Shown one piece after another: positions 7,101-58,713 of a stretch of 64,000 nt of DNA. The stretch lies in assembly GCF_900103415.1 (NCBI RefSeq), contig NZ_FMXB01000012.1, forward strand, positions 1 to 64,000. Direction: 5' to 3'. Position 1 is the stretch's first letter. Every line of letters begins with the position of its first letter. This DNA comes from Methanobrevibacter millerae (GTDB lineage: Archaea; Methanobacteriota; Methanobacteria; Methanobacteriales; Methanobacteriaceae). The notes under the pieces were generated by a model. That model was given only the letters and a program-made list of their open reading frames with translations. It searched no databases and was not told the origin of the DNA. The translations under genes were made by a program, and so were the position numbers.

Positions 7101-10100
7101 AGTTAATGTGGTATTGGACTTGGTTACGCCCAGTTTGGTGCCGTTTATGCTTGAAAGATATTGGTCATCGCCGATATAGGTTACATTTACATTGTATGTT
7201 CCGTTAGCAAGATCTTTGATATGTACATGACCGATTCCACCGGTCAGGTTAGCTGTGTAGTTAACGCCGTTGACAACAACAACCACATATCCTGTAGCGT
7301 TGGCAGGAACTTTAACCTCAATATCAGCAATGTCGCCGACAGTAATGTTTTCAACAGTGACATTTACATATGAATTGCGTTTGTTAACTGTAAAGTTAGC
7401 GGTTGTGGAGTTGGATACATACTTATCATCACCAACATAAGCTGCAACAACAGTCTTATTGCCATAAGTTATTGCAGGAACGTAGAATGTTGCAATACCA
7501 CTAACAGTAACATTGGTTAATTCAATACCATTAATTTCAATTGTTACGCTTTCAGTTACATCTTCAGGAACGGTTACAATGACTTTTACAGTGTCGCCAA
7601 CATAAATACTATCTTTATTGACTACAGTAATTTCAATTGGAATGTCAACTCTTGATACATAATAAGTGGTTTCAACAGTCTGGTTAGCATATTTAACATC
7701 CTCTAATGTTGCATTAACCACATATCTTCCTTCTTTTGTCTGGTTAATGTAGAATATGGCTTTGCCGCCGTGAGTTGCATTAGTTAATTTGGTGCCATTT
7801 ACCCAAACCGTTACAGTTCCTGTAGCATCAACAGGAACATTGACAACAATGGTTGTGTTTTCACCGACACCCACATCAACAGCAGTAACATTCATAAGGT
7901 AAGAATTATCCTTAGTTACATTCAATCCGTTTACAAGGGTTGCATTCTTTGAAGTGTAGTTAGCATCACCAGTATAATTTGCTATAATGTCATATAAGTT
8001 TACAGGCAATTTATCAACAGTGAATCTAGCCACACCACCGATAATATCAGCAGTGTAATTCTTACCGCCAACAGTAATGTTTAAAGTACCAGAAGCATCA
8101 CTACTAATTCTAACATAGATTGTAGCATTAGTGTTAGCATCAGTAAGAGAATCAACAATAGTGATTGCAGGAGTTGCCTTAGTCACATTGAAGTCCTTAT
8201 CAGCAGTACCAGCACCGTATTTAGCATCACCTTTGTAGTATACGTGGACTGTGTAATTTTCAACAGCTAAAACACCCGCATCAAATACAACTTTACCGTT
8301 AACAAGAGTGAACTCGCCTTTATCTGTATCATTAATCTTAATGGTTAAATTACCAGTTGCATCAGGAATAATAATTTCAATTATAGTAGGATTACCATAA
8401 GGCACATTACCAACATTAATTGTGATAACTGGCGGTACTTTACTCATTTCAAAGGTTTCAGTGTTATTTTCACTTGGTTTGTACTGATCATCACCAAGAT
8501 AAGTAGCATAGACATAATAAGTACCATTTCCAAGACCAGAAATATTAACTGAACCGAGACCTCCGGTAGTATTAATTGTATAATTGGTGCCGTTCACATT
8601 AACAACCACATATCCAGTAGCATTAGCCGGAATTTCAACACTAATTGTAGCATTGCCGCCAACACTATTGTCTGTAGCAGTCACATTTACAAATGATTCA
8701 CGTTTAGTTACAGTGAAAGTATCAGTAGTTGAATTGAATAAATACTTATCATTACCATTATAAGTTACTGTGATTGTTTTACCTCCGTTAGTTACAGATG
8801 GAATAACGAAAGTAACAACGTTTGAATCAGATTTGTTAGTTAATGTTATGCCATTGATTTCAAGAGTGATATCTTCGTTTTTAATGTCAGTTGGTAAAGT
8901 TACGGTTACGGTTACATTATCGCCGACCTTAATATTTTGACTGACAACATCAATAATGAGAGGCGTTTCATGTTTGAATACCCAGAAGTCGCAGATTGCA
9001 TATCTAGGTCCGTATTTGCCGTCTGTAAATGTTACGTTAACCGTGTGGTTTCCGTAAGGTGCAGTCACATTCAATTTAGCGATTCCTTGGCTGATTGTAG
9101 CGTTTCCAACGAAAATAGTATCAACATAAACAGATACATTACCTTCAGCATCAGCAGGGACTTTGACAACAATTGTGCTGTTTAAACCTACCAAGGTATC
9201 ATTTGCTGTCACATTGATTTGATAGCAAACCACTTTAGTTATCGTTAATGCATTTGAAAGCGTAAATGTGGCATTAGTGTTATTATTATCACCAGTGTAA
9301 TTGGCAATGATGTCATAAGTGCCTGAGAGCAATTGGTTAATGACAAATGTTGCAACGCCGTTTACGATTGTAGCGTTGTATTCAGTGCCGTTAAGTGTAA
9401 GAGTAATGTTTCCTGTTGCGGTTTCATTAATTCTTACTATAATGGTTGCATTTGTGGCAGCATCAACGCTTACAGGAGTATCAATGCTGATTACAGAATT
9501 AACCTTCTTGACTTCAAAGTTCTTGGATTCTGTATTGTTGATGTTATAATAATTATTTCCATTATAAGTTACGTTAACCGTGTAATTTCCGGCAGCGAGG
9601 CTTTCAACAATCCAGGTTACCTTGTTATTGACTATAGTCAAGGTTATTTCGCTGCTGGCAGTGTCATTAAGTTTAAGAGTAATGCTTCCTTCTACGCCGT
9701 CAGGAACAGTTACAGTGATTGAAGCGTTCTCACCGTAAACAATATCATCAGCGACAATTGAAAGAGTCACGTTAGCTTTGGATACCTTGAAAATGCAGTC
9801 ATCTTCAGCCGTTGTGTAATTGTCATAGGCTTCACCGTAATACTTGATATGTACACTGTAAGTACCGTTGGCCAGTTTTTCTAGCGGAATTTCAGCTACA
9901 CCATTATTGAAGCTGTCCACACGGATTTGATAGTTTGTGAAGTTTCCGGATACTATTACATAACCATTAGCATTGGCAGGGACATTGATTGTCAGTTTGC
10001 CGTTCTCCAATGTAGTAACATTGATTGCTGTTACGCTCACATCAGGAGTTCTCTGTTTTACTTCAAATCCACCCATGGCTTTACTTGGATTCAAGTCTCC

Positions 10101-11980
10101 ATCTCCACCATAGAATGCCCATAGAACCTTATGTCCAACAGTTAAATTGTCAATGTTGAATGTGGCAATACCATCTACGATTTTTGAAGAATAATCAATA
10201 CCGTTTATATTGATTGTAACGTTTCCAGGAGCACTTCTGATTAAATAACCACCATTATCTAAAACTCTGACATGAATATCTGTAGTGTCCCATACGAAGA
10301 TATTTCCTGCAGCAATATACAATTTAGTATCCATTGTTAGAACTTCAAACTCAGCCGTATTGGAAGCAGAATTGAAGTTATCGTTTCCGCTGTGAATAAC
10401 TTCTATTGTATGTGTACCTGTTCTAAGGCCGGTCAGGGATTTTGAAGTTTTATTATTTGCATCTAAAGCCTCATTTTCTGCAATAATGACACCATCCAAC
10501 TTGATAGTTACATTTCCTGCAGCATTTACAGTAATATTTAGCTTTTCAGTTTTACCGAATAAAATATCAGCAACTTGTATGTCTATTTTTGGATTGGCTT
10601 TATATACCTCGAACTTGGATTGGCCGGTGTTGCCTTCATCGGATTCGTCTCCGCTGTAGACTACATCAATCACATAGTCACCAACAGGCAATCTGACCGT
10701 AAATGAGGCTGTGCCATTATCAAGAGTTACATTTTCATATACTTTCAGCGTATCGTTAATTTTAAGAGTTACATTACCTCCAACAGCGCCCTGGACTTCA
10801 ACCAGAATAATGGTGTCATTTCCATAGGTTACGTTATCGGCTTGAATGATTACTGGAGGCTTCAATTTGCTTACTTTAAATAGTGTAGAGTTGGAAGTGA
10901 ATTTATACTTGGCATCCTCAAATAAAACTGTTATGTTATATACGTCCACATCCAGGTTTTGGAGAGGTATTTTAACCGTTCCGTTAATGATTTCAAGAAT
11001 ATGTTTATATTTGAATTCAGTTCCGTTAATAGTTACGTTTACAATTCCCACAGCATCCTGAGGAACCGCAATGACAATATCCTCTTCGCTTCCGTGAGTA
11101 ATGTTTTTAGCATCAATCAGGACATCCGCATCGTATTTGTGCACATTGAACGGAGCATAACCTGTACTTGGCGCAAGGGTTTCATTTCCTGCAAACATTG
11201 CAACTACATACTTTTTACCTGCAGTCAAACCTGTTTTATTGAATGAAGCCATTGAATTGTTTAAAGTTAAATTGTATTCGACATTATCCAGAATAACAGT
11301 AATGATACCTTCCACAGTCTGGTTGGAAATTATCGTAACATTTATATAAATTGTTTCATCAACCATAATGTCCTCGGCACTTACCTTTATTTCAACCAGT
11401 GTCCTGATTCTTTCCGTGATATTTTCATACGTGAAGTTTGAGGAAGGCTTGTAATTATCGTCACCGGAATATGCGGCTTCTATTCTTATAGCGCCCGGAG
11501 GCATGTTATAGGCTATGCCCATTCCGGTACCGTTTACAAGTTCGACATTAATGATTTGGCCTCTTACATTCAGGGTCACATTACCTGTAACATCATTAGG
11601 ATCAGTTACGATTCCAGTATCGTTGTGCTCGACGGTTACGTTAATAACGAAATCGTAATAATGGGTAGTTACATTCAGAATTATTCTGGATTCGGCTTTT
11701 GTCACATTGAGTACGGTTGTGGTTTCAAACGGCCTGTACTGTCCATCACCGGCATATTTTAAAACGACAGTGTGACTGCCGACTTCCAGATACTTACCGT
11801 TTACCAATGTAGAGACATTGATTGTACCTTTACCCTGTTCTAAAGTAATGTTACCCATGAATTGGTCATAAATATAAACAGAGACATTGCTTTTTGCTTC
11901 TTGAGGCAATTCCATGCTTACAGTTCCGTTTAAGTGGAATGTGGCATTGGTTGTTGAAGCTTTAAAGCTAGGATATTTTC
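1..11980 (-). repeat. Array of about 45 Ig-like domain repeats
   Basis: Segments encoding the Gly-Asp strand recur about every 245-290 bp (for example near 190, 455, 700, 965, 1215, 1480, 1780, 2040, 2300). They build a rod-like stalk in the C-terminal two thirds of the adhesin. Higher-order copies are visible: a block near 2131 recurs at 4555 (2,424 bp away) and one at 6681 recurs at 9342 (2,661 bp away), both offsets being multiples of three. The domain count is an estimate from spacing. Confidence 0.8.
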
Positions 11981-14900
11981 TTGTAAATTTTTCAACATAA
12001 GTGTAATAATCCTGATTGGTTAGATAAACATCAACATATTCAACAGCTCCAATTGAAGCACCCTCATCTAAAATGTCTGCCTTTTTAACAGATATGTGAC
12101 CGTTTGCATCAGTCAGGAAAGTGCAATTCTTCTTGTTCAGCTGGATTCCATCAGCATTTCCTATTTCAATGGTGAAATTCTGACCGGATTCATTAGTTGG
12201 AACCGCTGGATTTCCGGGTAATGTTTGTTCACTTGAACCAGTGTTAGCCTCACCGTTTTCATTCCAGTATTTAACGTTTTTAACCTTCAAAGTCTTTGAA
12301 TTATCCATGAAAATTCCGTTTAAGTAGTTATCCCAACCTTGGAAGTCTATGGTGATAATTCCATTCGCATCATCGACTACAAATGATGAAGTATTAGCCC
12401 TATTCTTTAATAATACTGCATTGTTTAATGTAAAATCTGCAGTTGAATAAATTGCAGAACCCTTGAATGCCTTGTTACCTGTGAAGTTTAAATTATTATT
12501 AGTAATAGCGAGAGTTGTGTACAATCCTCCACCTTTTTCGTTTGCAGTATTATTATAAAATGAAGTATCATACATTTTAAGTGCTTTTTCGGCTGAAATT
12601 GCTCCACCATTAACTTTAGCTGTGTTGTTTATAAACTTACAATCATACATATTGAAGTCTTGTCCAGTATGAAGAGTCATCAGAGCTCCACCACTAAGTT
12701 TAGCTGTGTTGTTTATAAAGGTAACATTTCTAAACTCAACATATTTATATTGTTTAACTTGAACGGCACCTGCCCCATAGGAATGCGGACCAATACACTC
12801 TGCAATGTTATTTACGAATTTTACATTTTCAACTTTGAAACTTAAATCATAGTTGTTGTGGTTATATTTAGTACCTGTTTGTATATATAATGCTCCGGCT
12901 TCTTTAGAAGATGAACAGTTCTCAAATAAACAATTTCTTATAGTATAATTTCCATGTGATCTTGCATAAATAGCTCCTCCTTGAACCCAAATCTCAGCAC
13001 CATCATTATCATTTGCTTTATTAGAAGTAGTGTTAATATAATTGCCTACAAAAGTACAGTTATCAATCAAGGCATTGTAACAATTATCCCATAAAATAGC
13101 TCCACCATCAGCCTTTTTATCAGATTGAACGGAGTTATTATAGAATTTTGAATTTTTAACAGTACCATAAGATCCCAATTCAGACCAGTAAATACCACCA
13201 CCACCCAAAGTGGTTCTTGGATCTGTGCCTGCTGGAGGATCTTTAACTACCTTACCTTTAGCATATGCAATATTTCCTGTGAATATACAACCGTCAACAG
13301 TATTGTTCATGGAATTAGTTCCACCATACCAGTAAATACCTCCACCATCATAATCTGCAATGTTATTAGTAAAGTTAGAACCATATACAGTAGAATATGA
13401 ACCAATTGAGTATATTGCTCCACCAAACTTAGCAGAAAAAGAATTGTTGAATGAAGAATAAGTTACATTAGTATGATTACCTTCCAAGTATATTGCTCCA
13501 CCACGAGCATCACTGTCATCAACTTTAGAACGTAAGAAATCAGAATGTGTTATAGTAGTATAATTACCTTCAACATAAATAGCACCACCATTCAACTTAG
13601 CATAAGAATCAACAAAACTGGAACCCTCAATAACAGTACGTGTACCATTAACGTAAATAGCTCCACCTTGAGAACCATCGGCATCCACCATAGAACCAGT
13701 GAAACTAGAATTACTTACAGTAGTGTCATTACCTCTAATATAAATAGCACCACCACGCATTTCAGCAGAAGAACCAGCAAAGCTGGAACCCTCAATAACA
13801 GCATACTCACCAAATACATAAATAGAACCGCCTTCGGATTCAGCATCATCCACTTTAGAACCATTGAAAGTAGAATTACTTACAGTAGTATAATTACCAT
13901 TAATATAAATAGAACCACCATCCAACTCAGCATAAGAACCAGCGAAGCTGGAACCCTCAATAACAGCATACTCACCAGAAACGTAAATAGAACCGCCCTG
14001 AGAACCTATAGCATCAACTTTAGAATCAGTGAAATCAGAATCCCTTACAGTTGTATAATTACCATTAATATAAATAGAACCACCATTCAACTTAGCATAA
14101 GAATCAGCGAAGTTAGAGCCTTCAATGAGCGCATGTTCACCGTTTACATAAATGGATCCACCCTGAGAAACATCACTATCTACCTCACAGTCTGTGAAAT
14201 TAGATGTTTTAACAGTAGTATTGGTACCATTAATATAAATAGCTCCACCATAAAGGTTGGATCTTGAATGCTCGAAGTTAGAATCAGTAATAGTCGTATT
14301 TAAACCACTAATATAAATAGCTCCACCGCGTGCTTCATGGTTATTGTTAGCGTAATTATTTGTGAAGTTTGATGATTCGATATCAGCATAATCACCGCTT
14401 ATGAATATTGCTCCACCACCATTGTCACGGGAACCGAATGCGTGAGTATTGTCAAATGATGAGTTTACAATTGTTGCGTGTAAACCGCGTACATAAATTG
14501 AACCACCGGATACGGTAGCGTTTGTATTTACAAATTCAGCTGATATTGTTGCGTTATGTCCTTCAACGTAAATAGCTCCACCATTTTGAGGAGAACTGGA
14601 ATCTTCAATGACACAATTTACAATATTCGTATAATTACCTAGGATATAAATTGTACCACCGTCTCCCACTCCTACAGTTGAGTTTTTAAATGTGGAATCC
14701 GTTACGTTTACATCATTACCTGTGATGAAGATTGTACCACCGATATATCCAGCGTAACTGTTTTCAAAGTGGGATTTAGTTAATAAAGTGTCATTTCCTG
14801 TAATAATAATGGTTCCTCCTTTTGTTGAGGAAGTACCTCTAGGAATGCCAGTACCGGTACCGTTGTTATTAATACAGGTGATATTGTAAATAATACCGTT

Positions 14901-38279: not shown

Positions 38280-40031
38280 TCAATGGTAATAATCAAAAAC
38301 ATTTTGGGCAGCATTTCTGCTCATCCCCTCCACTTCCATAAGCTCTTCGAAGCTTGCATTTTTGATGTTTTCAACACTACCGAATTCCTTTAAAAGATTC
38401 ATTTTCCTTTTATTTCCTATTCCTTTTATGTCATCAAGACTGGATTGGCTTATATTCTTGCTTCTAAGCTTTCTATGATAGGTAATTGCGAAACGGTGGG
38501 ATTCGTCACGAACCTGCTGAAGGAGGTGCAGGGCACGATTGTTCTTGGGAATTATGATTGGCCTTTTCGAGTTCGGAAGATATATTTCCTCAAATTCCTT
38601 GGCAAGGCCTATTACCGGTATGTGGGTCAGATTCATTTCGTCAAGCACTTCGCATGCCATGCCCAGCTGGCCCTTTCCTCCATCAATTACAATCAAATCA
38701 GGCTCGGGATCCGTTTCAATTAACTTCAATCTGCGGGTTAAAAGCTCCTTCATCATGGCAAAGTCATTAGGTCCCGGAGTTTCCATACGGAAATGCTTAT
38801 ACATCTTCTTGTTGGGCTTGGCGTCCTTAAACGATACCTTTGAGCCTACGGCGAATTCGCCCGAAATGTTACTTATGTCATATCCTTCGATAACACGGGG
38901 TATGTTTTCAAGCTTCAGATACTTCTTAAGCTCTATTAGAGAGTTTTCAAGTTTTTTCTTTTGATGCTGAATAATTTCGGCATTTTTCTGGGCCATCTTT
39001 ACGAGACGAAACTTGACACCCTTTTGAGGAACCTTGATGTAAACCCTGTTTCCCCTCAAATCGCTCAGCCATTCCTCAAGCAATTCGGAATCGTCAATGT
39101 CCTCGGCCAGAAGAATCTGCTTTGGAACGTGCCTGTTGTAGCCGTAATACTGCTGGATGAAAGCCGAAAGTATCTCAGAAGTGGAATCGTATTCCGATGC
39201 GCTCATTAAAAAATCGTCCCTTCCGGTGATTTTTCCGTTCCTTACGGGCATTATGATGACAACGATGTCCATTTTTCCCTGGGCTATGGCTATTACGTCC
39301 TGGTCCAAATCGTCATCGGCCAAATCGACGAACTGCTTTTCCATTATCTCTTCAATGGATGCAATCTGGTCCCTGAGTACGGCTGCCTTTTCATACTCCT
39401 CATTTAAAGCGGCCTGAGTCATTTCCTCTTTAAGGTTTTTAACTATCACAGAGTATTTTCCCTGGAAAAACAAATCGATCTTGTTTATTATCTCGGAGTA
39501 TTCCTCCTCGGAAATCCTCTCATCGCATGGAGCGTAGCACAAATCAATCTGTGAATTGAGACATGGCCCGTCCATATTTCGGCAGGTTCTTATTTTAAAA
39601 AGTGATTTGAGAAATTTGACTGTCCTTTTAACCGAACCGACATCGGTGAATGGACCATAATAAACCCCGTTTTTCGTGACGTTTCGGGTAATGACCAAAC
39701 GGGGAAACTTCTCATCGGTAATCTTAACGTATGGATATCTCTTGTCGTCCTTGAGCTGGATATTATAGCGGGGATGGTGCTTTTTAATCAGTGTGGCCTC
39801 TAGAATCAGGGCTTCCTTTTCGGAGTTCGTCAGGATATATTCCAGGCTGTCGAAATGACTCATCAGTATCTGGGTTTTCGGCCTGTCAAGCTTCTCCCTG
39901 AAATAGGACATTACTCGGTTTTTAAGGTTTTTCGCCTTTCCGATATAGATGATTTCATCATCGGCGTTTTTCATTATGTAAACGCCCGGCTTTTTAGGCA
40001 GGTTTTCGGGAGAAGTGATTTTTGATGACAT
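38280..40031 (-). CDS. uvrC: UvrABC system protein C
   Basis: The dual-incision nuclease of nucleotide excision repair, acting with UvrA/UvrB (not in this window). 583 residues, full length. The GIY-YIG nuclease is at about 12-95 (G-V-Y-I-M, I-Y-I-G-K-A-K-N-L-K-N-R, E of E-A-L-I-L-E). The UVR motif is near 200 and the RNase H-like C-terminal nuclease has Y-D-I-S, IDGGKGQ and R-D-E-S-H-R, keeping the D-D-H triad. A helix-hairpin-helix pair closes the protein. It starts 12 bp after the stop of the giant helicase gene, so the two are probably one transcript. Confidence 0.97.
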   Translation of the reverse strand: MSSKITSPENLPKKPGVYIMKNADDEIIYIGKAKNLKNRVMSYFREKLDRPKTQILMSHFDSLEYILTNSEKEALILEATLIKKHHPRYNIQLKDDKRYPYVKITDEKFPRLVITRNVTKNGVYYGPFTDVGSVKRTVKFLKSLFKIRTCRNMDGPCLNSQIDLCYAPCDERISEEEYSEIINKIDLFFQGKYSVIVKNLKEEMTQAALNEEYEKAAVLRDQIASIEEIMEKQFVDLADDDLDQDVIAIAQGKMDIVVIIMPVRNGKITGRDDFLMSASEYDSTSEILSAFIQQYYGYNRHVPKQILLAEDIDDSELLEEWLSDLRGNRVYIKVPQKGVKFRLVKMAQKNAEIIQHQKKKLENSLIELKKYLKLENIPRVIEGYDISNISGEFAVGSKVSFKDAKPNKKMYKHFRMETPGPNDFAMMKELLTRRLKLIETDPEPDLIVIDGGKGQLGMACEVLDEMNLTHIPVIGLAKEFEEIYLPNSKRPIIIPKNNRALHLLQQVRDESHRFAITYHRKLRSKNISQSSLDDIKGIGNKRKMNLLKEFGSVENIKNASFEELMEVEGMSRNAAQNVFDYYH

Positions 40032-40043
40032 TTTAAAAGTAAC

Positions 40044-43000
40044 CTAATTGAGCTCAACCATATCCTTGTCCATCTTGACTGAACCGTCCGCAATCATCGA
40101 ATCCAGAACACGCTTGATTGACTCTGAAGTCTTGCGGGAAGTTGACTTGAATCCGAAATTGCGTGAAACTTCCCTTGTAAGAGCTGCCGTTGGCACACTC
40201 TGCTTGTGGGAGATAATCGTTTCAATGTTTTTAGCTATTTCCTCATCTGAAATCAAATCTATGTTAGGCTTTACGCGCTTTCTTATAACCACGTCATTGC
40301 TTAAAGCGTCATACAGGAAGTCTCCTATTCTTATGATATCTCCTGAATTTTCCGACTCCTTAATCGCCTTGCTGACCTGCTTTTTCATTTTGGAGCCTGC
40401 CCTTTTGATGTGGCAGCTGTCCTTAACCCTTTTGGTGACTTCATCAACATGAACAGGACCTTCAACATTGACAATTTCACTGACTGACTTGGAAACGTCT
40501 TCAATCGGACGGTTGAATAGGTCATCCTGTGAATTAAGGCCGAAATCGCTTGCAAACTTGTATTCAAAGATTTCATCTTCAATGTTTCCCCTTTTCGGAA
40601 GCTTGTTGTCGTCAAAAGCCTTCAGGGTATTGTTGCTTTTGAACCTTTCCTTTTCGATTTCCTTGTAGTCCTCGTCAGCTATCTGGATAATGTCCTCCAG
40701 AGCCTGGTCCTTTTTAACTTCACGCCTTTCCTCTTCGTGAACGGTTACAATAGTATCCTTATCACTGCTCAGTTCCTTTTTGAGCTTTTCCATCTGGAGC
40801 TCCCTTTCATATCTGAGCTCCTCCTCTTCGGCAAATGTAAGTCCCTCATCTTCCGGAACATACTCCTCACCTTCATAATCCTGAACAGGAGTCAGGTAAT
40901 CGTCCTCATTATATTCGGCAGTCCTGTCAACAACGGAAACGTATCCGACCTGCGTCGGGTTTTCAATTTCCTCAAGGGACTTTTTGATGTATTTGATGTC
41001 CCTTATTCCGCTTTTTATCGAATCTTTTACTGACTTGTTCCTGTTTCTGTCCTCATCATAGTAGAGATTGTTCTTTCTGAGAGGACTGTTGACGTCATTA
41101 ATGCCTTCGTAATAGGTAACTCCATCGGGAGATGTAGATGGGGCATAAACTTTTTGCGTGTCTTCCTCATAAGCATCATCATTTTGATTTTTTGCTTCAT
41201 TATTTTCATAGTTATCTTTTTGAACTTGAGTATTTTCATCGTCTTTTTCATTTAATGCATCAGAAATAACTTCGTCAAAAGCACTGCTTACGATTGCAGA
41301 GGCAAGGTTTGTAATGTCCTCATCCTCAAAACTGCCTTCTGGATTGGACTGGAAAGCCTCATCTATAATACTGTCTAACTTAACTTGTTTACTAGGTTTC
41401 ATATCAGATACACCATCAACATTTCTCTTAAATACAACATTTACAGGATTTTCATCAATAACTTCTTCATAATCATCATTTGAAATTTTAGAGCCCGGAG
41501 TGATGATTTCTGCTTCAACGACATCCTCATCGCTTGGCGCAGGCCTATGTTCAATAACATCCTCATCAATGACTTCGGAATGGACGGTTTTAACTTCCTC
41601 TTTGGTTAAATCAATTCTTGTGGTACCTCTAATGGCTTCGGAAATGCGGGATTCACTTAAACCGTTAGGATTTTTAGGTTTTCTGTCACCGAATAAATTT
41701 TTAATAGGATTGACCTCAACGACAGGAGGTTCATTTTCATCAACCTGCTCAATTGTACTTTCTTCGTCATTGCTATGATCTACGTAAATATAATCGTCAT
41801 CGGAGCCCAGATCCACATTTTCATCTTCATTAATTTCATCCGCTTCAGGAATGTCCTCATTAATTTCAGGGGATTCCTCGATTTCATCATCGCTATGGTC
41901 TACATAAACATATTTGTCATCTGAGTCCAAATCAATCTTTTCATCATTAATAGGTTCCTCTTTAGCCAGGATGTCATCATTAATTTCATCATTGGAAACA
42001 TTTATTTCATCATCATTGCCCACATAAACGTATTCGTCATCGAAATCAGAATCTGGCGTTTTATCATTAATGATTTCCTCTTTTGCTGGAACATCATTCA
42101 AATCGATGCTGTCTGTAGAAGTGGAAAATTTGACCTTAGGAGTTTCCTTTGTTTCTTTTTTATCCGGAATTATATCTATGACTTCCTCTTCAACAGGTTC
42201 TTCCACAATAGGTTCATTAACTTCCTCTTCAACAGGTTCTTCCACAATAGGTTCATTAATTTCTTCTTCGATCGGTTCTTCTTCAACAGCAGGTTCTTCT
42301 ACCTGTTCGATAGATTCCTCTTCAACAACTCCATTAACTTCTTCATCAGCAGGCTCTTCATCATCAATAGCTTCATTAACTTCCTCTTCTACAGGTTCAT
42401 CATCCAAATCCTCATCGGATTCATCAATATCTTCTGTTAAATCGTCCTCAATGATTTCCTCATCATCACTGTGGTCAACATAAATGAAATCGTCTTCATC
42501 AATTTTATCTTTAATAATCTGATCCAAATCATCAATATCCTCCAAATCATCCTCATCATGATTGAATATTGAAAATTTATTTTTAATTGTAGACAATATG
42601 CCGCCGCCGGCAGCTTTTGAAATAGTAGAACCGAATTTAACTTTAGGAGTTTCAGATTCTTCATCTATTTCTTCTTCTTGGCCTTCTTCTGCGGTTCCTT
42701 CGTCTTTATGTTGAACATCTTCGCTATCGTCTTCATCACTTTCAAATGTATCTTCATCATCTACACCGTCGTCTTCTTCAATAGGTTCATCGTCAGATAA
42801 TTCATCAATAATTTTATCAACGTCAAATTCTTCAGATTCTTCCAAATCATCCGGAGTTTCTTCATCAACTTCCAGCTCATCAGGAACTTCTTCAACAGTT
42901 TCGTCTTCATCCAACTCAACAGAATCTTCTTCAACAGTTTCGTCTTCATCCAACTCAACAGATTCCTCTTCAACTGATTCGTCTTCATCAATATCTTCAT

Positions 43001-46000
43001 CGTCTTCCTTTAAAAAGTCAGAAATTTCATCTTTTACACTGTCATCGGATAAATCAATAGGCTTTTCATCATCCAATTCATCTTCATCATCATTAACTGG
43101 TTCTGATGAATCCATATCCTTATCATCATTAATTGGCTCTGATGAATCTACGTCCTTATCATCATCTGAATCAACTTTATCATCATTAATTGATTCGGAT
43201 TCATCTTTTACTTTCGGAGAATCCTTCTTATCAGCAGCAAATACAAAGTCATCGAAGGCACTGAAATCTTCATCCATTTCAATGAATTCGCTAGGTGACT
43301 CTTCAACCACGTCATCATTAATTTCTTCTATAACCTCAACAAACTGGCTAGGAGACTCTTCAACAAATTCCAAATCGTCATCATGGTCGAAATCGTCCTC
43401 AGAATCCTTGCTGACAAAAATTATGTCATCATCAAAGTCAAGACCGTCCGGAGGAATGACTTCAATGTCATCTCCAAGCATAGCCATTTTAGCCTCTTCC
43501 TCTTTTCTCCTCTGCTCTTCAAGTTCTTTTTCACGCTGCTTTCTTAATTCTTCAGCTCTTTTTTCAGCTTCGATTCTGCGCTCTTCTTCTTTCTTTCGGG
43601 CAATTTCCTGTTCCTTACGGGTTTGCTTTATGGATTTTTCAATGTTGTCCAATAGCTTTTTGCGTCCCAGGTCACGGTTTCTATACCAGTCTGTGGACCA
43701 TAAATGATAAAGCTTCCATCCCAATCCTTCAAGTACCTGTTCACGAAGCCTGTCACGGTCACGGGCAACTTTGCTGGACGCATACATCTTTCCGTCGGTT
43801 GTAATACCCAATATGTATTTGCCAGGATTTTCCTCATCGACAATGGCTAAATCAACCCTGAATCCGGCACATCCGATTTGCTTGTCTACCTGATAGCCGT
43901 TTTCTTCCAAAAAGCTTGCAATTGCATCTTCAAACGGTGCTGATGAATGTTCCTCGTGGGTATGTGCACCTATGGTTAAGTTTTCGGCATATTCAAGAAA
44001 TTCCCTTAATGCCCTTACACCATGTGGCGGATTGGCAGTAAGTTTCATGCTTGATGCCTTGAAATTGGAAAATACAACACATTTCTGTCTTGCACGTGTA
44101 ATCAATACATTTAATCTTCTCTCACCGCCGTCCTGGTTTAGAGGACCGAAATTCAATGACATCTTTTTATCATCATCGAAACCGTATCCTACACTGATTA
44201 ATATGACGTCCCTTTCGTCTCCCTGAATCGTTTCAAGGTTTTTGACAAAGAACCTTTCATCCTTGTTTTCAGAAAATAATGGTTCAAGTTCAGGCCTTTC
44301 ACGGCGCTTTTCTTCCAGCTTTTCCAAAATAGCGTTCTTTTGTGCGACGGAGAATGTTCCAACACCCAGACTTTTAGTGTCGCCGTATCTGTCGAAATGG
44401 TCAAATATCGCTTCTACGACATCTTCGGCCTCTTTCGGATTTGCAGAGGATGATCCCCTTTCATAGGCGGTATTCGGATTATAGTGGAATTTCAAACCGA
44501 GTTCCTCGTCATTGTGTGAAGGTGAAGGATATACAAGCAGTTCATTGTCATAAAACTCCCTGTTTGATACGTTAATCAGTGATTCGTGACGGCTCCTGTA
44601 GTGCCATTTAAGCATCTTTACAGGGAATGAAAGCTTACATAAATGGAGGATGCTTTCCATATCCAGTGAGGTGGCTTCCTCCTCATCGCTTTCGCCGCTT
44701 GCCATCTGGTCAAAGAATGATGTCGGAGGCAGCTGCTGGGTATCTCCCATAACGACAGCGGTTTTTCCTCTCATGAATGCACCAAGTGCATCTTCCGGCT
44801 TTACCTGACTTGCCTCGTCAAAAATGACTACGTCAAACTGGAGTTCCTCGTTTGTAGGGTCAAGATACTGGGCAACTGAAAGCGGAGACATCATGAAACA
44901 CGGTTTGATTTGCTTAATCATTCCTCCGGCCTTTTCCAATAGTTTCCTAACAGGAAGGTGGCCGCTTTTTCTTGTAAATTCTCCTGCCAGAACCTTTGCC
45001 TGAGGGTTTTCCGTTGCTCCGAATATCTGCGGAATGTTGCTGTTGAGCTTATGGAAAATCCTTTTACGGTTCAATACCAGAATCTTTTTGTCCAGATCCT
45101 TGAATTCCCTGATTCTGTTTTCATGAAGCTCGCCGATGAATGTGGCCAGTTCCTGATTTTCAACAAAGAGAATGTTTAAAAGAGAATCGGCGAAGTTACC
45201 TTCAACCAATGCCTTTACGTCATCCTTTTTAATGTTTCTTTTCTCGATGGAATCAACGAATAAATCTGCAGACGTTCCCTTTAATGAGTTTTTGGTGTTA
45301 AGGTACTGTGACCATAAGTGAAGGCTTGAAAGCTGTCCTCTCCAGTTGTACAGCTGGGTTTGCCATTCCTCAAAGGTCACGTCATTGGCGCCTTTCTTGA
45401 ATATCAGTTTGCTTCTAGGGTTCAGCTTGGACTTTAGCTTGTCCAAATCGTTGCTGAATTCGTTTCCGGAGTCAATGTAGTCGACCAAATCCCTTTCTGG
45501 ATTGATTTCAAACAAGTCTTTTGATAAGATGTCAACGGTATTCTGTGAAAAGATTCCTTCCCTTGTAAGTGCGGTGAACTGCGTCATCCACTGGGCGATT
45601 GATTTTAAATCATTAATGTCTGCATTAAGATGCCAGTAATCGCCGAAATACTGTTTTGCCAGGGCCTCATTGGCTTCCAGGTTTTTCTTAAGCCCGATAG
45701 CTACCTTTGCATATTTCAGGTCATTGATTATTGAATTGATGTCATCGCTGACTGGAACCCTGTAATAGCGCTCAACAAGCTCCACATGCTGCTTGCCTTT
45801 AAAGAAGCGCAGCTTCTTATGGGACTGTTCATTGAGCTGATATATTAATGCGTCTATGTTAACGTGATAAATGCCTGGATTGAACTTGTCCAGAATTCCT
45901 GCAACTTTCTGATATCTGTCCAGTTGCTGAATAATGCGGTAAGCGTCATCATTGTTCCTTTCCCATGCGCCTGATTTTAATATCTTGGCGTCAATCAGCT

Positions 46001-47666
46001 CGGAATTCTGTGATTTGATAATGTCAAAAGCGGACAGTGACTTTTTAAATTCGTTTAACGTATCCGGCTTTTTGATTCCATAAATGTCATATACCCTTCC
46101 ACGCTCAACCAGAAATGCGTCAAGGGAAGTCAGCGTATCGTTAATAAGTATTTCAATTTCTCTTAAATCTGCCGGAAGCAGGCTTTTAGGTTCACATTTG
46201 CTCCAAGGATTTTCCTTTGAAATTGTCTGATAGAGCTCTGCAACGCTTTCAAGGCCTAAAATAATATCATCCAAATCCTTTAAGGAGATTGATTCCGGAT
46301 TGCTGAATCGAACCAGAGGCATCATGGCATTCTTTCGTGCAAAGTGGTCGTCAGCTGATTCCTTCATACCGTACAATTGGAAAGCTGAGAGATTCACTGC
46401 AAATACCGGCCTGTGAATAACGCTTGCGTAATCGTCAAGCTGCCTTTTTAAGGTTTCAAGTTTCCTTATTGTCTGGTCAATATTTAATGTATCCACGGCA
46501 CGCACGGTCGTTGCCTTCTGCAAATCCTTTAGGAACTTCTTTCGTCTTGTCTTGTGTGAATGCAGTTCCAGAACGAATTTGCCCAAACCAACACTTGTAA
46601 GCCTGTCCTTTACAACGTCAAGCGCAGCCATCTTTTCTGAAACAAATAAAACTGATTTTCCTTCCGCCAGAAGCTCTGCAATCAGATTAACGATGGTCTG
46701 TGACTTACCGGTTCCCGGTGGCCCTTCAACGACCAGGTTGCGTCCTGCCTTAACGTCCTGAATGGCCGCAATCTGGGATGAATCCGCATCCAGAACCTGA
46801 TACATCGTACTGTATTCTAGCTGAGTGTCAACGTCCTCCTCGTTAAAGGCTTCAACGTCATTTTTAGCCGGATTGAATATTGCCTGTATCAGTTCGTTTT
46901 TGGTTAAATCGACATTATCTGCCCAGCTGTCAGGGTTTAAGTCATTATACATTACGAATTTTGTAAAGCTAAAAAAACCAAGGGCAATATTGTCGTTGAC
47001 CTTCCAGCTGTCCATTCTTTCAACCGCATGCCTAACTTGAGCTATGTAATGGTCTATTACTTCACCGTATCTCTTGAATTCAAAATCGGGAAGCTCGATT
47101 CCGGCTTCCAAAAGCTTTGCCTTAAGTGAAATGTTTGTCTGAATGTCCTCGCCGGTCCATTCCAGATTGAATGATTCTCCAACCTTTTTCCTCTCCATTG
47201 AAACCGGAATAAGAACAAGAGGAGCCTTATTTATCTGTCTAGGCTTGGACTTGTCCTTCCATTCCAAAAATCCTACGGCAAGATAAAGGATGTTGTAACC
47301 CTGTTCCTGAAGCATCGTTCTGGCCTGGTTGTTAATGTAATACAGCCTCTTTTGAAGCTCATTCGGGGTCAAATCGGTAGCCAGTTTCTTGTTTCCTTCT
47401 GAAAACTTTGACAGGTCAAAGGGAATGTGATCCCAGACAGAAGACTTTTCCTCTTTCTTGTCCTTTTTGTTGGCTACAAAATACATCTTGTTCTGCTGCA
47501 AGACCAAAGTCTGGAAAATATTGAGCGGAGTCTGGTTTAGGATAGTGACCGTTTTTGCACGGGACTTGAAATTGAGCAACTGGTTTCTTAAAGTCAAATC
47601 CAGCAGCTCTTTACGCAGATTTTCGAACTCCTTTTCGATTTTGTCATTTGGTGAGTTTGCAAACAT
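40044..47666 (-). CDS. Giant DUF4011/SF1 helicase/Vsr-like nuclease/DUF3320 protein
   Basis: 2,540 residues. Order: DUF4011-type N-terminus (about 10-230); SF1 (Upf1/Dna2-like) helicase with Walker A GPPGTGKS at 315-322, DEAS near 950, GDTQQLPP, T-I-Q-G-D-E-R-D-V and N-V-L-I-T-R-A-R-Q near 1,160-1,190; an MTES_1575/Vsr-like nuclease fold at about 1,225-1,320; a basic/acidic coiled coil at about 1,320-1,390; an Asp/Glu-rich low-complexity insert at about 1,390-2,180; then DUF3320 (about 2,395-2,455) and a winged-helix-like tail. In relatives the nuclease core reads E-x-D-G-x-x-Y-H; here it is T-T-D-G-K-M-Y-A. The helicase motifs look intact. Proteins of this type are known from anti-phage defence contexts, but this one precedes uvrC. 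A TATA-like TTATATATG at about 47700 gives it its own promoter with a short leader. Confidence 0.85.
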   Translation of the reverse strand: MFANSPNDKIEKEFENLRKELLDLTLRNQLLNFKSRAKTVTILNQTPLNIFQTLVLQQNKMYFVANKKDKKEEKSSVWDHIPFDLSKFSEGNKKLATDLTPNELQKRLYYINNQARTMLQEQGYNILYLAVGFLEWKDKSKPRQINKAPLVLIPVSMERKKVGESFNLEWTGEDIQTNISLKAKLLEAGIELPDFEFKRYGEVIDHYIAQVRHAVERMDSWKVNDNIALGFFSFTKFVMYNDLNPDSWADNVDLTKNELIQAIFNPAKNDVEAFNEEDVDTQLEYSTMYQVLDADSSQIAAIQDVKAGRNLVVEGPPGTGKSQTIVNLIAELLAEGKSVLFVSEKMAALDVVKDRLTSVGLGKFVLELHSHKTRRKKFLKDLQKATTVRAVDTLNIDQTIRKLETLKRQLDDYASVIHRPVFAVNLSAFQLYGMKESADDHFARKNAMMPLVRFSNPESISLKDLDDIILGLESVAELYQTISKENPWSKCEPKSLLPADLREIEILINDTLTSLDAFLVERGRVYDIYGIKKPDTLNEFKKSLSAFDIIKSQNSELIDAKILKSGAWERNNDDAYRIIQQLDRYQKVAGILDKFNPGIYHVNIDALIYQLNEQSHKKLRFFKGKQHVELVERYYRVPVSDDINSIINDLKYAKVAIGLKKNLEANEALAKQYFGDYWHLNADINDLKSIAQWMTQFTALTREGIFSQNTVDILSKDLFEINPERDLVDYIDSGNEFSNDLDKLKSKLNPRSKLIFKKGANDVTFEEWQTQLYNWRGQLSSLHLWSQYLNTKNSLKGTSADLFVDSIEKRNIKKDDVKALVEGNFADSLLNILFVENQELATFIGELHENRIREFKDLDKKILVLNRKRIFHKLNSNIPQIFGATENPQAKVLAGEFTRKSGHLPVRKLLEKAGGMIKQIKPCFMMSPLSVAQYLDPTNEELQFDVVIFDEASQVKPEDALGAFMRGKTAVVMGDTQQLPPTSFFDQMASGESDEEEATSLDMESILHLCKLSFPVKMLKWHYRSRHESLINVSNREFYDNELLVYPSPSHNDEELGLKFHYNPNTAYERGSSSANPKEAEDVVEAIFDHFDRYGDTKSLGVGTFSVAQKNAILEKLEEKRRERPELEPLFSENKDERFFVKNLETIQGDERDVILISVGYGFDDDKKMSLNFGPLNQDGGERRLNVLITRARQKCVVFSNFKASSMKLTANPPHGVRALREFLEYAENLTIGAHTHEEHSSAPFEDAIASFLEENGYQVDKQIGCAGFRVDLAIVDEENPGKYILGITTDGKMYASSKVARDRDRLREQVLEGLGWKLYHLWSTDWYRNRDLGRKKLLDNIEKSIKQTRKEQEIARKKEEERRIEAEKRAEELRKQREKELEEQRRKEEEAKMAMLGDDIEVIPPDGLDFDDDIIFVSKDSEDDFDHDDDLEFVEESPSQFVEVIEEINDDVVEESPSEFIEMDEDFSAFDDFVFAADKKDSPKVKDESESINDDKVDSDDDKDVDSSEPINDDKDMDSSEPVNDDEDELDDEKPIDLSDDSVKDEISDFLKEDDEDIDEDESVEEESVELDEDETVEEDSVELDEDETVEEVPDELEVDEETPDDLEESEEFDVDKIIDELSDDEPIEEDDGVDDEDTFESDEDDSEDVQHKDEGTAEEGQEEEIDEESETPKVKFGSTISKAAGGGILSTIKNKFSIFNHDEDDLEDIDDLDQIIKDKIDEDDFIYVDHSDDEEIIEDDLTEDIDESDEDLDDEPVEEEVNEAIDDEEPADEEVNGVVEEESIEQVEEPAVEEEPIEEEINEPIVEEPVEEEVNEPIVEEPVEEEVIDIIPDKKETKETPKVKFSTSTDSIDLNDVPAKEEIINDKTPDSDFDDEYVYVGNDDEINVSNDEINDDILAKEEPINDEKIDLDSDDKYVYVDHSDDEIEESPEINEDIPEADEINEDENVDLGSDDDYIYVDHSNDEESTIEQVDENEPPVVEVNPIKNLFGDRKPKNPNGLSESRISEAIRGTTRIDLTKEEVKTVHSEVIDEDVIEHRPAPSDEDVVEAEIITPGSKISNDDYEEVIDENPVNVVFKRNVDGVSDMKPSKQVKLDSIIDEAFQSNPEGSFEDEDITNLASAIVSSAFDEVISDALNEKDDENTQVQKDNYENNEAKNQNDDAYEEDTQKVYAPSTSPDGVTYYEGINDVNSPLRKNNLYYDEDRNRNKSVKDSIKSGIRDIKYIKKSLEEIENPTQVGYVSVVDRTAEYNEDDYLTPVQDYEGEEYVPEDEGLTFAEEEELRYERELQMEKLKKELSSDKDTIVTVHEEERREVKKDQALEDIIQIADEDYKEIEKERFKSNNTLKAFDDNKLPKRGNIEDEIFEYKFASDFGLNSQDDLFNRPIEDVSKSVSEIVNVEGPVHVDEVTKRVKDSCHIKRAGSKMKKQVSKAIKESENSGDIIRIGDFLYDALSNDVVIRKRVKPNIDLISDEEIAKNIETIISHKQSVPTAALTREVSRNFGFKSTSRKTSESIKRVLDSMIADGSVKMDKDMVELN
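41150..43490 (-). other. Acidic low-complexity insert of the helicase gene
   Basis: In the helicase frame about 780 residues are dominated by Asp, Glu, Ser, Val and Ile. A motif (F/Y)(I/V)YV(D/G)-x-(S)-x-D-E recurs near 42477, 42022, 41900 and 41780 (residues about 1730, 1882, 1923, 1963). A run of (E/D)-E-P-V-E-E-E-V-N repeats lies at about 42190-42400. It is likely disordered and may be an interaction platform or DNA mimic. Confidence 0.75.
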
Positions 47667-56763: not shown

Positions 56764-58713
56764 TTATTCCACCATTATTTTTTCCTTATAAGTATTCGTT
56801 TTATTTGCACTATCAGTGAATTCTACCGTTATTTCATGTTCTCCAAGGTATTTATCAATGATTTCAAATAAGACCTGTGTTAAATCATCGGTTGTGGTAC
56901 CGTTAAAGACAAGCTCACCATCAATGTATATTAAAAGGTGTCCATTGATGAAAGTCATGTTGAACAGTTTGTTCAAGTAATCAAGGATAAAGAATTTTGA
57001 TTTACAGATTACCTGATTGTCTGATACGCGCGTAACGGTATATGTCTTTTGAGCTACATAAGTGGACGTTGATTTAACCGGACTCTGCTTAACTGGAGTG
57101 CTTGGAACTGTCTTATTGGATGGAACATCTTTCTTTAAGAAGAGGTTTAAGAATTTTTGCAAATCAAAACCGTTAATAAATGCTGCCAAATCAAAGTCAG
57201 TAATGTTAAACAATGCCAAGATAGCAAATAAATCCAAGCTGGTCAAATTAAAGCTGGATATTAAACCAGATAAATTAAGACCACCCATATCAAGATTGGA
57301 TAAGTCTATTTTAGAGAAAATAGCAGACATATTGAAATTAGGATCGCTCATAATAGATGAAATGTCTGAAATGGTGATTGCAGACAGATTATAGCCTGAC
57401 ACATTGACACCCAAATCGGACACATTAATGCCGAATGATTCGAACAATCCCGTTAAATTTAACACGCTTGAGCCTAAACTTGAATAGTTCATGCTTGAAA
57501 AGAGGCTTCCTAAATTAAAGCCTGAAACATTAACACCTAAACCAGTACTGGAAAGGTCAATAGCATTGAAGTCTATAGAACTTTTGTATTGACCAGGCAT
57601 ATTATCAGTATAAGTGGTAATTTTGAATCCTGAACTCAAATAGGAAACAAGGCTGGATAAGTCCATTTTAGAAACATCTAAAATAGATATTACACCAGAC
57701 AGGTCTACACTAGACAAGTCCATACCAGTAGTGAAGTTTTCAAAGTCTAAGCTACTAATATTGAAACCTGGGAACTGAAAATCACTAGAATTTATACCAG
57801 TGAAGTCGAAAGTTGACATACGAATAATTGAATTGAAATCTGTTGAATCTAACATCGGTTCAAGTGATAAAAACATGTCAGTAATCTTCAAGTTAACATC
57901 ATTAAAGTTGGTGTATATGAAATCTGACATGACAGCAGAAATGCCAAGATCTGCTAAGCTATAACCAGTCAAATCAATAGATAAATCCAAATTGGCCATA
58001 TCGATACCGTTATCTGCAGTTATAAGCTGCATAGTCGGCAGAATTACGTCTAAATCAATATATTTTCCATTCATGCCCAATGCCATATCAAAATCCAAAT
58101 TCTTGAAGTGCAAATAGGTCTGCTCATAATCGTTATACTCAAAGTCAGCAATATCGACTAATAAGGTAACGCCGTTTACTTCAGGATAGGATTTGAAGAA
58201 CAAATTAAGGTCTTTTAAATTAACTTGCTCGGTTCCGGTTACCAAATCTAAGGTATCCATAAGAACTGAAAATTCAAGGGCTGATGGATTTGAACTAGGT
58301 AAAATGGATAAATCAAGGTTTTTAAATGTAAACATAGTGCTATTATAATCAGTATACTTTACTTCAGGAATCTTCATTTGCAAATCAAGTTTTGAAGAGT
58401 CGGCTGCTGGAGTGATTGTCATGGTAAAGTCAGACATGACCAGGCCGTTTTGGGAAAATCCTTCAATATTCAATTTGGTAGAATCCCCAGTAAAGTTTAT
58501 ATCTTTAATAACTAAACTATCATAATTTATCTCATTAATACTCGGTTCAGCACCTAATATTTCATTATCTATTGGAGAAGATAACTCTATATCATCAACA
58601 GGAATTGATAACAATGTATCATCAGTTGCTGTTAGATTTTCGCTAGCATGTGCACAGGACAATGTTAAGAAAAACATCAACATTATCATTAATACATATG
58701 TTCTAGATTTCAT
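56764..58713 (-). CDS. Secreted repeat protein with C-terminal Ig-like domain
   Basis: 649 residues. Residues 1-23 form a signal peptide ending in A-H-A-S. Residues about 60-300 contain repeats of about 50-60 residues with Y-(T/N)-(D/N)-(Y/F)-x5-(F/L)-K-(N/I)-(L/T)-D. Residues 310-540 are Leu/Asp/Ser-rich with many N-L-S/D-L-S-S-type elements. A Pro/Ser linker (about 535-560) leads to a beta-rich C-terminal domain of about 100 residues ending E-H-E-I-T-V-E-F-T-D. No C-terminal membrane anchor is seen. The ATG has GGAGGGATTAA just upstream. It is probably a surface or released protein; the family is not recognised. Confidence 0.8.
   Translation of the reverse strand: MKSRTYVLMIMLMFFLTLSCAHASENLTATDDTLLSIPVDDIELSSPIDNEILGAEPSINEINYDSLVIKDINFTGDSTKLNIEGFSQNGLVMSDFTMTITPAADSSKLDLQMKIPEVKYTDYNSTMFTFKNLDLSILPSSNPSALEFSVLMDTLDLVTGTEQVNLKDLNLFFKSYPEVNGVTLLVDIADFEYNDYEQTYLHFKNLDFDMALGMNGKYIDLDVILPTMQLITADNGIDMANLDLSIDLTGYSLADLGISAVMSDFIYTNFNDVNLKITDMFLSLEPMLDSTDFNSIIRMSTFDFTGINSSDFQFPGFNISSLDFENFTTGMDLSSVDLSGVISILDVSKMDLSSLVSYLSSGFKITTYTDNMPGQYKSSIDFNAIDLSSTGLGVNVSGFNLGSLFSSMNYSSLGSSVLNLTGLFESFGINVSDLGVNVSGYNLSAITISDISSIMSDPNFNMSAIFSKIDLSNLDMGGLNLSGLISSFNLTSLDLFAILALFNITDFDLAAFINGFDLQKFLNLFLKKDVPSNKTVPSTPVKQSPVKSTSTYVAQKTYTVTRVSDNQVICKSKFFILDYLNKLFNMTFINGHLLIYIDGELVFNGTTTDDLTQVLFEIIDKYLGEHEITVEFTDSANKTNTYKEKIMVE

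Follow-up and report, generated by a model that had tools for sequence, protein, structure and literature searches.

Among described systems, the anti-phage system Hhe has the order DUF4011, SF1 helicase, and Vsr-like nuclease in common with the protein analyzed here, but Vibrio Hhe has an intact IECDGxxYH motif and gives no DUF3320 match at the threshold used, whereas the present protein has an altered site, an acidic insert, a DUF3320 region, and a core locus. The MTES_1575-type proteins of conflict systems (PMC3710099) have a Vsr-like REase followed by two wHTH domains that overlap DUF3320, an arrangement also found here; HEPN and transglutaminase fusions are the forms described in that paper, whereas the present protein has neither domain annotated and carries the acidic insert in addition. 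In P. aeruginosa, a large DUF4011 gene is core, occurs in every isolate, and flanks defence hotspot 1 (PMC10250203); it can be likened to the present gene by its size and core status, but it lies beside a defence hotspot. Two further comparisons concern disorder rather than domain order. Borg MTES_1575 proteins (PMC9879509) combine this domain with tandem-repeat disordered sequence in an archaeal context, as here, but their repeats are of a Lys/Glu type (EKIEKGII, EKEKVI), whereas the present insert is of an Asp/Glu type and about 780 aa long. D/E repeats in proteins of the HMGB1 type place an acidic disordered segment beside DNA-binding domains, where they autoinhibit DNA binding and speed target search (PMC10250230); they are eukaryotic and short (30 residues in HMGB1), and their mechanism is carried over to our protein by analogy. 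A short linker between the nuclease and DUF3320 is usual for the DUF4011-helicase-MTES_1575-DUF3320 family, though it is not known as a requirement for membership.

The window, a stretch of 64,000 nucleotides from a Methanobrevibacter millerae contig (NZ_FMXB01000012.1), contains a giant ORF whose features are listed in Table 1. The first-pass annotation had proposed the order DUF4011, SF1 helicase, MTES_1575/Vsr-like domain, and DUF3320, and Pfam recovers all four in that order; its limits for the acidic insert, 1390-2180, were nearly exact and are now refined. The best PADLOC model is PDC-S37 (1655 bits), with a best-scoring stretch, residues 8-1394, that stops before the acidic insert, and the Hhe model scores 690 bits; compared with PDC-S37, the present gene is core and linked to uvrC. 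The helicase motifs I and II (GPPGTGKSQ and FDEASQ) are invariant in 98 of 98 aligned sequences, and the closest relatives of solved structure are Sen1, Smubp2, and Upf1, with DNA2 also matched. The DUF3320 region is modeled by AF2 as a tandem winged-helix pair at a pLDDT of 93.5, and its PDB matches are winged-helix structures. Elsewhere in the window, an ORF of at least 7219 aa (3-21659, minus strand), open at the window start, probably encodes a giant surface or adhesin-like protein, and an ORF of 649 aa (56764-58713, minus strand) has no Pfam matches.

Table 1. Features of the helicase gene and the adjoining uvrC, in window coordinates.
Feature	Position	Strand	Evidence or remark
Whole ORF, 2540 aa, DUF4011-SF1B helicase-MTES_1575-acidic insert-module-DUF3320	40044..47666	-	ATG start; internal stops = 0
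DUF4011, residues 20-185	47112..47609	-	Pfam 154.6 bits
Split SF1B helicase (Upf1/Sen1/Smubp2/DNA2-like), residues ~295-1201	44064..46784	-	Pfam AAA_11/AAA_12
MTES_1575 Vsr-like nuclease-fold domain, residues 1245-1342	43641..43934	-	Pfam 108.9 bits; AF2 model
Altered active-site motif GITTDGKMYA, residues 1287-1296	43779..43808	-	
Mixed-charge K/R/E-rich helix-like stretch, residues 1348-1397	43476..43625	-	
Acidic, predicted disordered insert, residues 1398-2177	41136..43475	-	Fast-evolving, gap-rich
39-nt tandem array within insert	42181..42398	-	5.5 copies
Additional tandem array in acidic part, 39 nt	42871-42989		
Additional tandem array in acidic part, 36 nt	43079-43165		
Insert-specific conserved module, residues 2178-2380	40527..41135	-	SPLRKNNxYY ... 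KYIxKSLxEIENPT...VVDRT ... LEDIIQ..EDYKEIEKER
DUF3320 region, tandem winged-helix pair, residues 2381-2540	40047..40526	-	Pfam DUF3320 2381-2428, 44.3 bits; AF2
uvrC	38280..40031	-	Start 12 bp past helicase stop

The acidic part of the insert is 40% D+E, with a net charge per residue of -0.33, and the charge-hydropathy line places it with disordered sequences; windows over residues 1401-2000 hold 36-55 D+E and a net charge of -29 to -51 per 100 aa. The control that we used confines such composition to this gene. It took the most negative 200-aa window of each of 359 other ORFs (at least 200 aa long) from 50 genus loci: the median charge is -15, while the orthologues reach -94, and the only other ORFs at or below -50 (in L059, L014, and L035) are all pieces of the same helicase gene, interrupted by N runs in L014 and L035 and by a break in L059. 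With N runs in the split frames of L014 and L035, we do not claim a frame-split or phase-variable ORF in the insert. Further copies of the acidic insert or of the module were sought in this genome and none was found. An assembly or annotation artefact might be suspected from the few contigs that stop, or carry N runs, within the insert, but the identical architecture recurs across dozens of genomes assembled independently of one another, some of them apparently closed, and this explanation, already refuted, keeps only a negligible probability. The contigs of L004, L008, L009, L012, L015, L017-L019, L022, L024, and L025 all stop within the acidic insert, which suggests repeat or strain length variation.

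In an alignment of 51 long-linker sequences, the mixed-charge stretch (1348-1397) is followed by two distinct parts. Residues 1398-2177 align poorly and are rich in gaps, with a pairwise dN/dS of 0.15-0.50, yet they are acidic in every lineage. Residues 2178-2380 are not acidic filler: they form a conserved module in which several blocks reach 2-2.9 bits per column (51 sequences), similar to much of DUF3320. The module has a dN/dS of 0.03-0.10, or an undefined dS with low dN, in nine of ten pairs, and 0.34 in the M. ruminantium-type pair; the corresponding pairwise values are 0.02-0.04 for the core and 0.03-0.12 for DUF3320. A largely neutral insert, that is, a tolerated disordered linker grown by slippage whose acidity is kept only against aggregation or sticking to DNA, would fit the 39- and 36-nt tandem arrays, the fast-evolving and gap-ridden acidic part, the wide range of lengths (395-1128), and the precedent of archaeal Borg proteins with repeat-borne disordered regions, one of them with MTES_1575 (PMC9879509). 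It fits less well with a segment that is always acidic and kept in every Methanobrevibacter-type lineage read, with a dN/dS below 1, and with a strongly conserved module at its end, and we regard it as rather unlikely. Within the acidic part, a YIYVDHS-type motif is repeated at residues 1724-1967 (bases ~41766-42497) and is a possible short binding motif; most rumen-type orthologues have one to four copies of it, and L123 (M. smithii type) and L136 have none. A reading of this motif as RPA-binding or SUMO-like was set aside as a resemblance only, the motif being missing from those two sequences.

The long linker is a property of one lineage. Measured in homologues from the MTES domain to DUF3320, the linker is 1034 aa in the present protein and 395-1128 aa in every Methanobrevibacter-type orthologue read through (51/51), the M. 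ruminantium type having 1128 aa. It is 136-212 aa in Methanobacterium-type genomes, 67-82 aa in the Methanothermobacter type, 52-58 aa in two outlying family genera, 61-67 aa in Methanocorpusculum, 49 aa in one Poribacteria genome, and about 50-110 aa in bacterial relatives with both domains detected. Second copies mostly have 44-57 aa, with 97-188 aa in some Methanosphaera copies. On the core tree the long linker is restricted to one clade, with weak basal support (0.555), and a single origin followed by later growth would be the simplest reading of these sequences, although it is not proven; acidic residues make up 22-29% of the linker in the termite-type lineages, rising to about 28-37% in the genus of the gut and rumen. 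The first-pass annotation had called the insert unusual for its family, and this holds, as most other lineages and most defence-type copies have linkers of 44-110 aa and the long insert is lineage-specific. It had also asked whether the insert might be absent from close relatives as a sequencing artefact or already described in the family: it is present in all close relatives, and we found no description of an acidic insert in the DUF4011-helicase-MTES_1575-DUF3320 family in the literature searched.

The same lineage has an altered nuclease site. The AF2 model of the MTES domain (pLDDT 77.8) has its best PDB fold match in I-Bth0305I, an EDxHD endonuclease, and this match, together with general knowledge of Vsr and EDxHD enzymes, suggests that its active site is equivalent to theirs; a search of PDB sequences with the MTES profile gave weak RAP-domain matches only. 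Where defence-type second copies and bacterial members read (G)IECDGxxYH, the genus Methanobrevibacter reads ITTDGKMY[A/S]. The histidine is lost in 69 of 70 Methanobrevibacter-type sequences, with alanine or serine instead in all genus sequences (47/47); Methanothermobacter, Methanocorpusculum, and two other genera have lost it as well. At the variable position, glutamate is lost in 57 of the 70 (E in 13/70), with T, N, or I in the uvrC-linked genera and Q in the M. ruminantium type. Both residues are kept in Methanobacterium-type sequences (5/5), and they are frequent in second copies (E in 11/11, H in 9/11) and in bacterial members (E in 7/7, H in 6/7). Of the four positions that give EDxHD its name, three (E, D, D) are unchanged in the genus sequences (47/47). 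Other acidic positions, namely the E of the first helix, the D of RxD, and the D of RDRD, remain in the genus, and Vsr carries Thr at the variable position. Given these residues and the Thr of Vsr, the site need not be dead; it may be weakened or changed. The pooled dN/dS of the MTES domain (0.031) is near that of the helicase (0.033), and the domain is therefore maintained, not decaying.

The retained acidic residues and the Thr of Vsr would also fit a role in resident innate immunity, as a still active helicase-nuclease directed against viruses and plasmids and vertically fixed, with the tether as an autoinhibitory safety catch that would be more needed in a permanent enzyme capable of self-cutting. 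The PADLOC matches to PDC-S37 and Hhe point the same way, as does the anti-phage Hhe annotation carried by plasmid-borne relatives, but defence neighbours are absent at the locus, the histidine is almost always lost, and mobile-defence-like behavior belongs to second copies with intact sites. We consider resident immunity unlikely, though it is the main rival reading. Core status alone is not decisive here and does not exclude immunity, because P. aeruginosa, too, has a large DUF4011 core gene, found in every isolate.

By bit score and genus, and with one ambiguous g2 match, 113 of the 119 genomes of the family that lie outside Methanosphaera carry the core orthologue, against 0 of 20 in Methanosphaera; the six others without it are drafts of 64-92% completeness. 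Its neighbours are the uvrC, PfkB-type kinase, cation-efflux protein, HisA, IMPDH, and mfnB genes. The co-directional adjacency to uvrC is conserved in the genus and absent from several other genera. In a count made by hand from result tables, 62 genus genomes have both DUF3320 and UvrC matches, and in 61 of them the two lie on the same contig within ~2 kb, the exception (G074) having a contig break between them. In 35 of 39 loci, 5-18 bp separate the helicase gene from the first uvrC ATG; of the other four, three seem to begin uvrC at a codon other than ATG, and g6 shows a gap of 880 bp. Helicase and UvrC distance matrices correlate at r=0.965 (37 loci), and uvrC is the probable operon partner of the helicase. 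Each protein is nonetheless independent of the other, because UvrC occurs without the helicase in Methanosphaera (20/20) and the core orthologue is present in four genomes of 92-99% completeness in which UvrC was not detected (G004, G005, G006, and G021); dependence on UvrC is weak. Long-insert lineages without uvrC linkage also exist (M. ruminantium type), and the coincidence of linkage with the change of the glutamate has no statistical weight because each looks like one event on the tree. Two loci deserve mention for their own sake: in L056 (5176-12861), the core orthologue adjoins a divergent DUF4011-helicase frame of 853 aa on the opposite strand (28% identity), and in L127 (G149; 7588-12189), a closed-looking Methanothermobacter-type genome, the orthologue lies in three frames (204, 1177, and 214 aa), a sequencing error or a pseudogene.

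Another rival reading is a role with RNA or in transcription: a Upf1/Sen1-like SF1B helicase could target R-loops or transcription that has stalled, for example as a repair-coupling factor beside UvrC. Sen1, Smubp2, and Upf1 are the best solved relatives, and Mfd and CSB homologues are absent in archaea (PMC7690668), but helicase likeness does not fix DNA versus RNA specificity, DNA2 is matched too, and an RNA polymerase-binding domain was not identified; we consider such a role very improbable. As a substitute for UvrD in excision repair, the helicase was considered and rejected, UvrD-helicase family members being present in 21 of 21 genomes.

The second copies behave differently. They are sporadic, in about a dozen of the 119 non-Methanosphaera genomes and in 12 of 20 Methanosphaera, and in L121 (1580-13528) the second-copy gene immediately follows the hsdM-hsdS-hsdR cluster of a type I restriction-modification system. 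Set against the near-universal orthologue, this sporadic distribution means that one archaeal family has core and mobile, defence-like versions. The M. millerae genome has both: its second DUF4011-helicase-MTES copy (L003 5080-12492, minus strand; contig C4 of G000) has an intact nuclease motif and a linker of 49 aa, and this mobile, intact-site, short-linker copy is a natural control within the same genome. In L003 the region between the helicase halves is much enlarged, and the gene that follows encodes a zinc-ribbon protein that weakly matches LmuB. Of the traits of Hhe, the core gene has neither a mobile or sporadic distribution or defence-island context nor the intact EDxHD-type nuclease residues. 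The first-pass suggestion that the gene belongs to a defence island is not supported: it is surrounded by housekeeping genes and followed by uvrC after 12 bp, it is near-universal and vertically inherited, and its nuclease site has lost residues still present in the mobile copies.

The core gene is more likely to encode a genome-maintenance protein than to be a mobile defence gene, and the best reading of its history is of a former defence-type helicase-nuclease retained for that function. The full form of this reading, in which a chromosomal, vertically inherited family member works in genome maintenance and not as a mobile immune module, with the acidic tether shielding its DNA-binding surfaces, is the one that we tentatively prefer, at slightly less than even confidence. 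In it, the SF1B helicase would engage damaged or invading DNA, and the nuclease fold would serve as a DNA-binding pseudonuclease or as a gated nuclease of weakened activity. DNA would be bound by the tandem winged helices, for which the long acidic disordered tether would act as a shield; by competing for basic surfaces, the tether would lower non-specific binding, and it would give the winged helices and the conserved module a long reach. A partner could dock on the module, possibly UvrC or some other repair factor. From sequence and structure models, an acidic disordered segment is predicted to lie in the same polypeptide as the DNA-binding domains, and, of the ideas for the insert, an autoinhibitory or partner-binding tail is the best that remains.

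A bolder form of the genome-maintenance reading is that a gut-methanogen ancestor domesticated a defence-type helicase-nuclease into a new archaeal excision-repair or damage-surveillance helicase, with a constrained pseudonuclease, incision by the UvrC of the same operon, a giant regulatory acidic tether, and a new docking module. We think this improbable as a whole. Excision repair in archaea lacks a defined pathway (PMC7690668), which makes a helicase with a fixed place next to uvrC a concrete candidate for a partner. The protein also stands out as a prokaryotic helicase with a very long acidic disordered region whose lineage history is clear, and it is a natural test case for the change from a defence to a housekeeping enzyme. 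Methanobrevibacter are major gut methane producers, and scans that equate DUF4011-helicase-Vsr with defence would count this core gene as immunity in nearly all of them.
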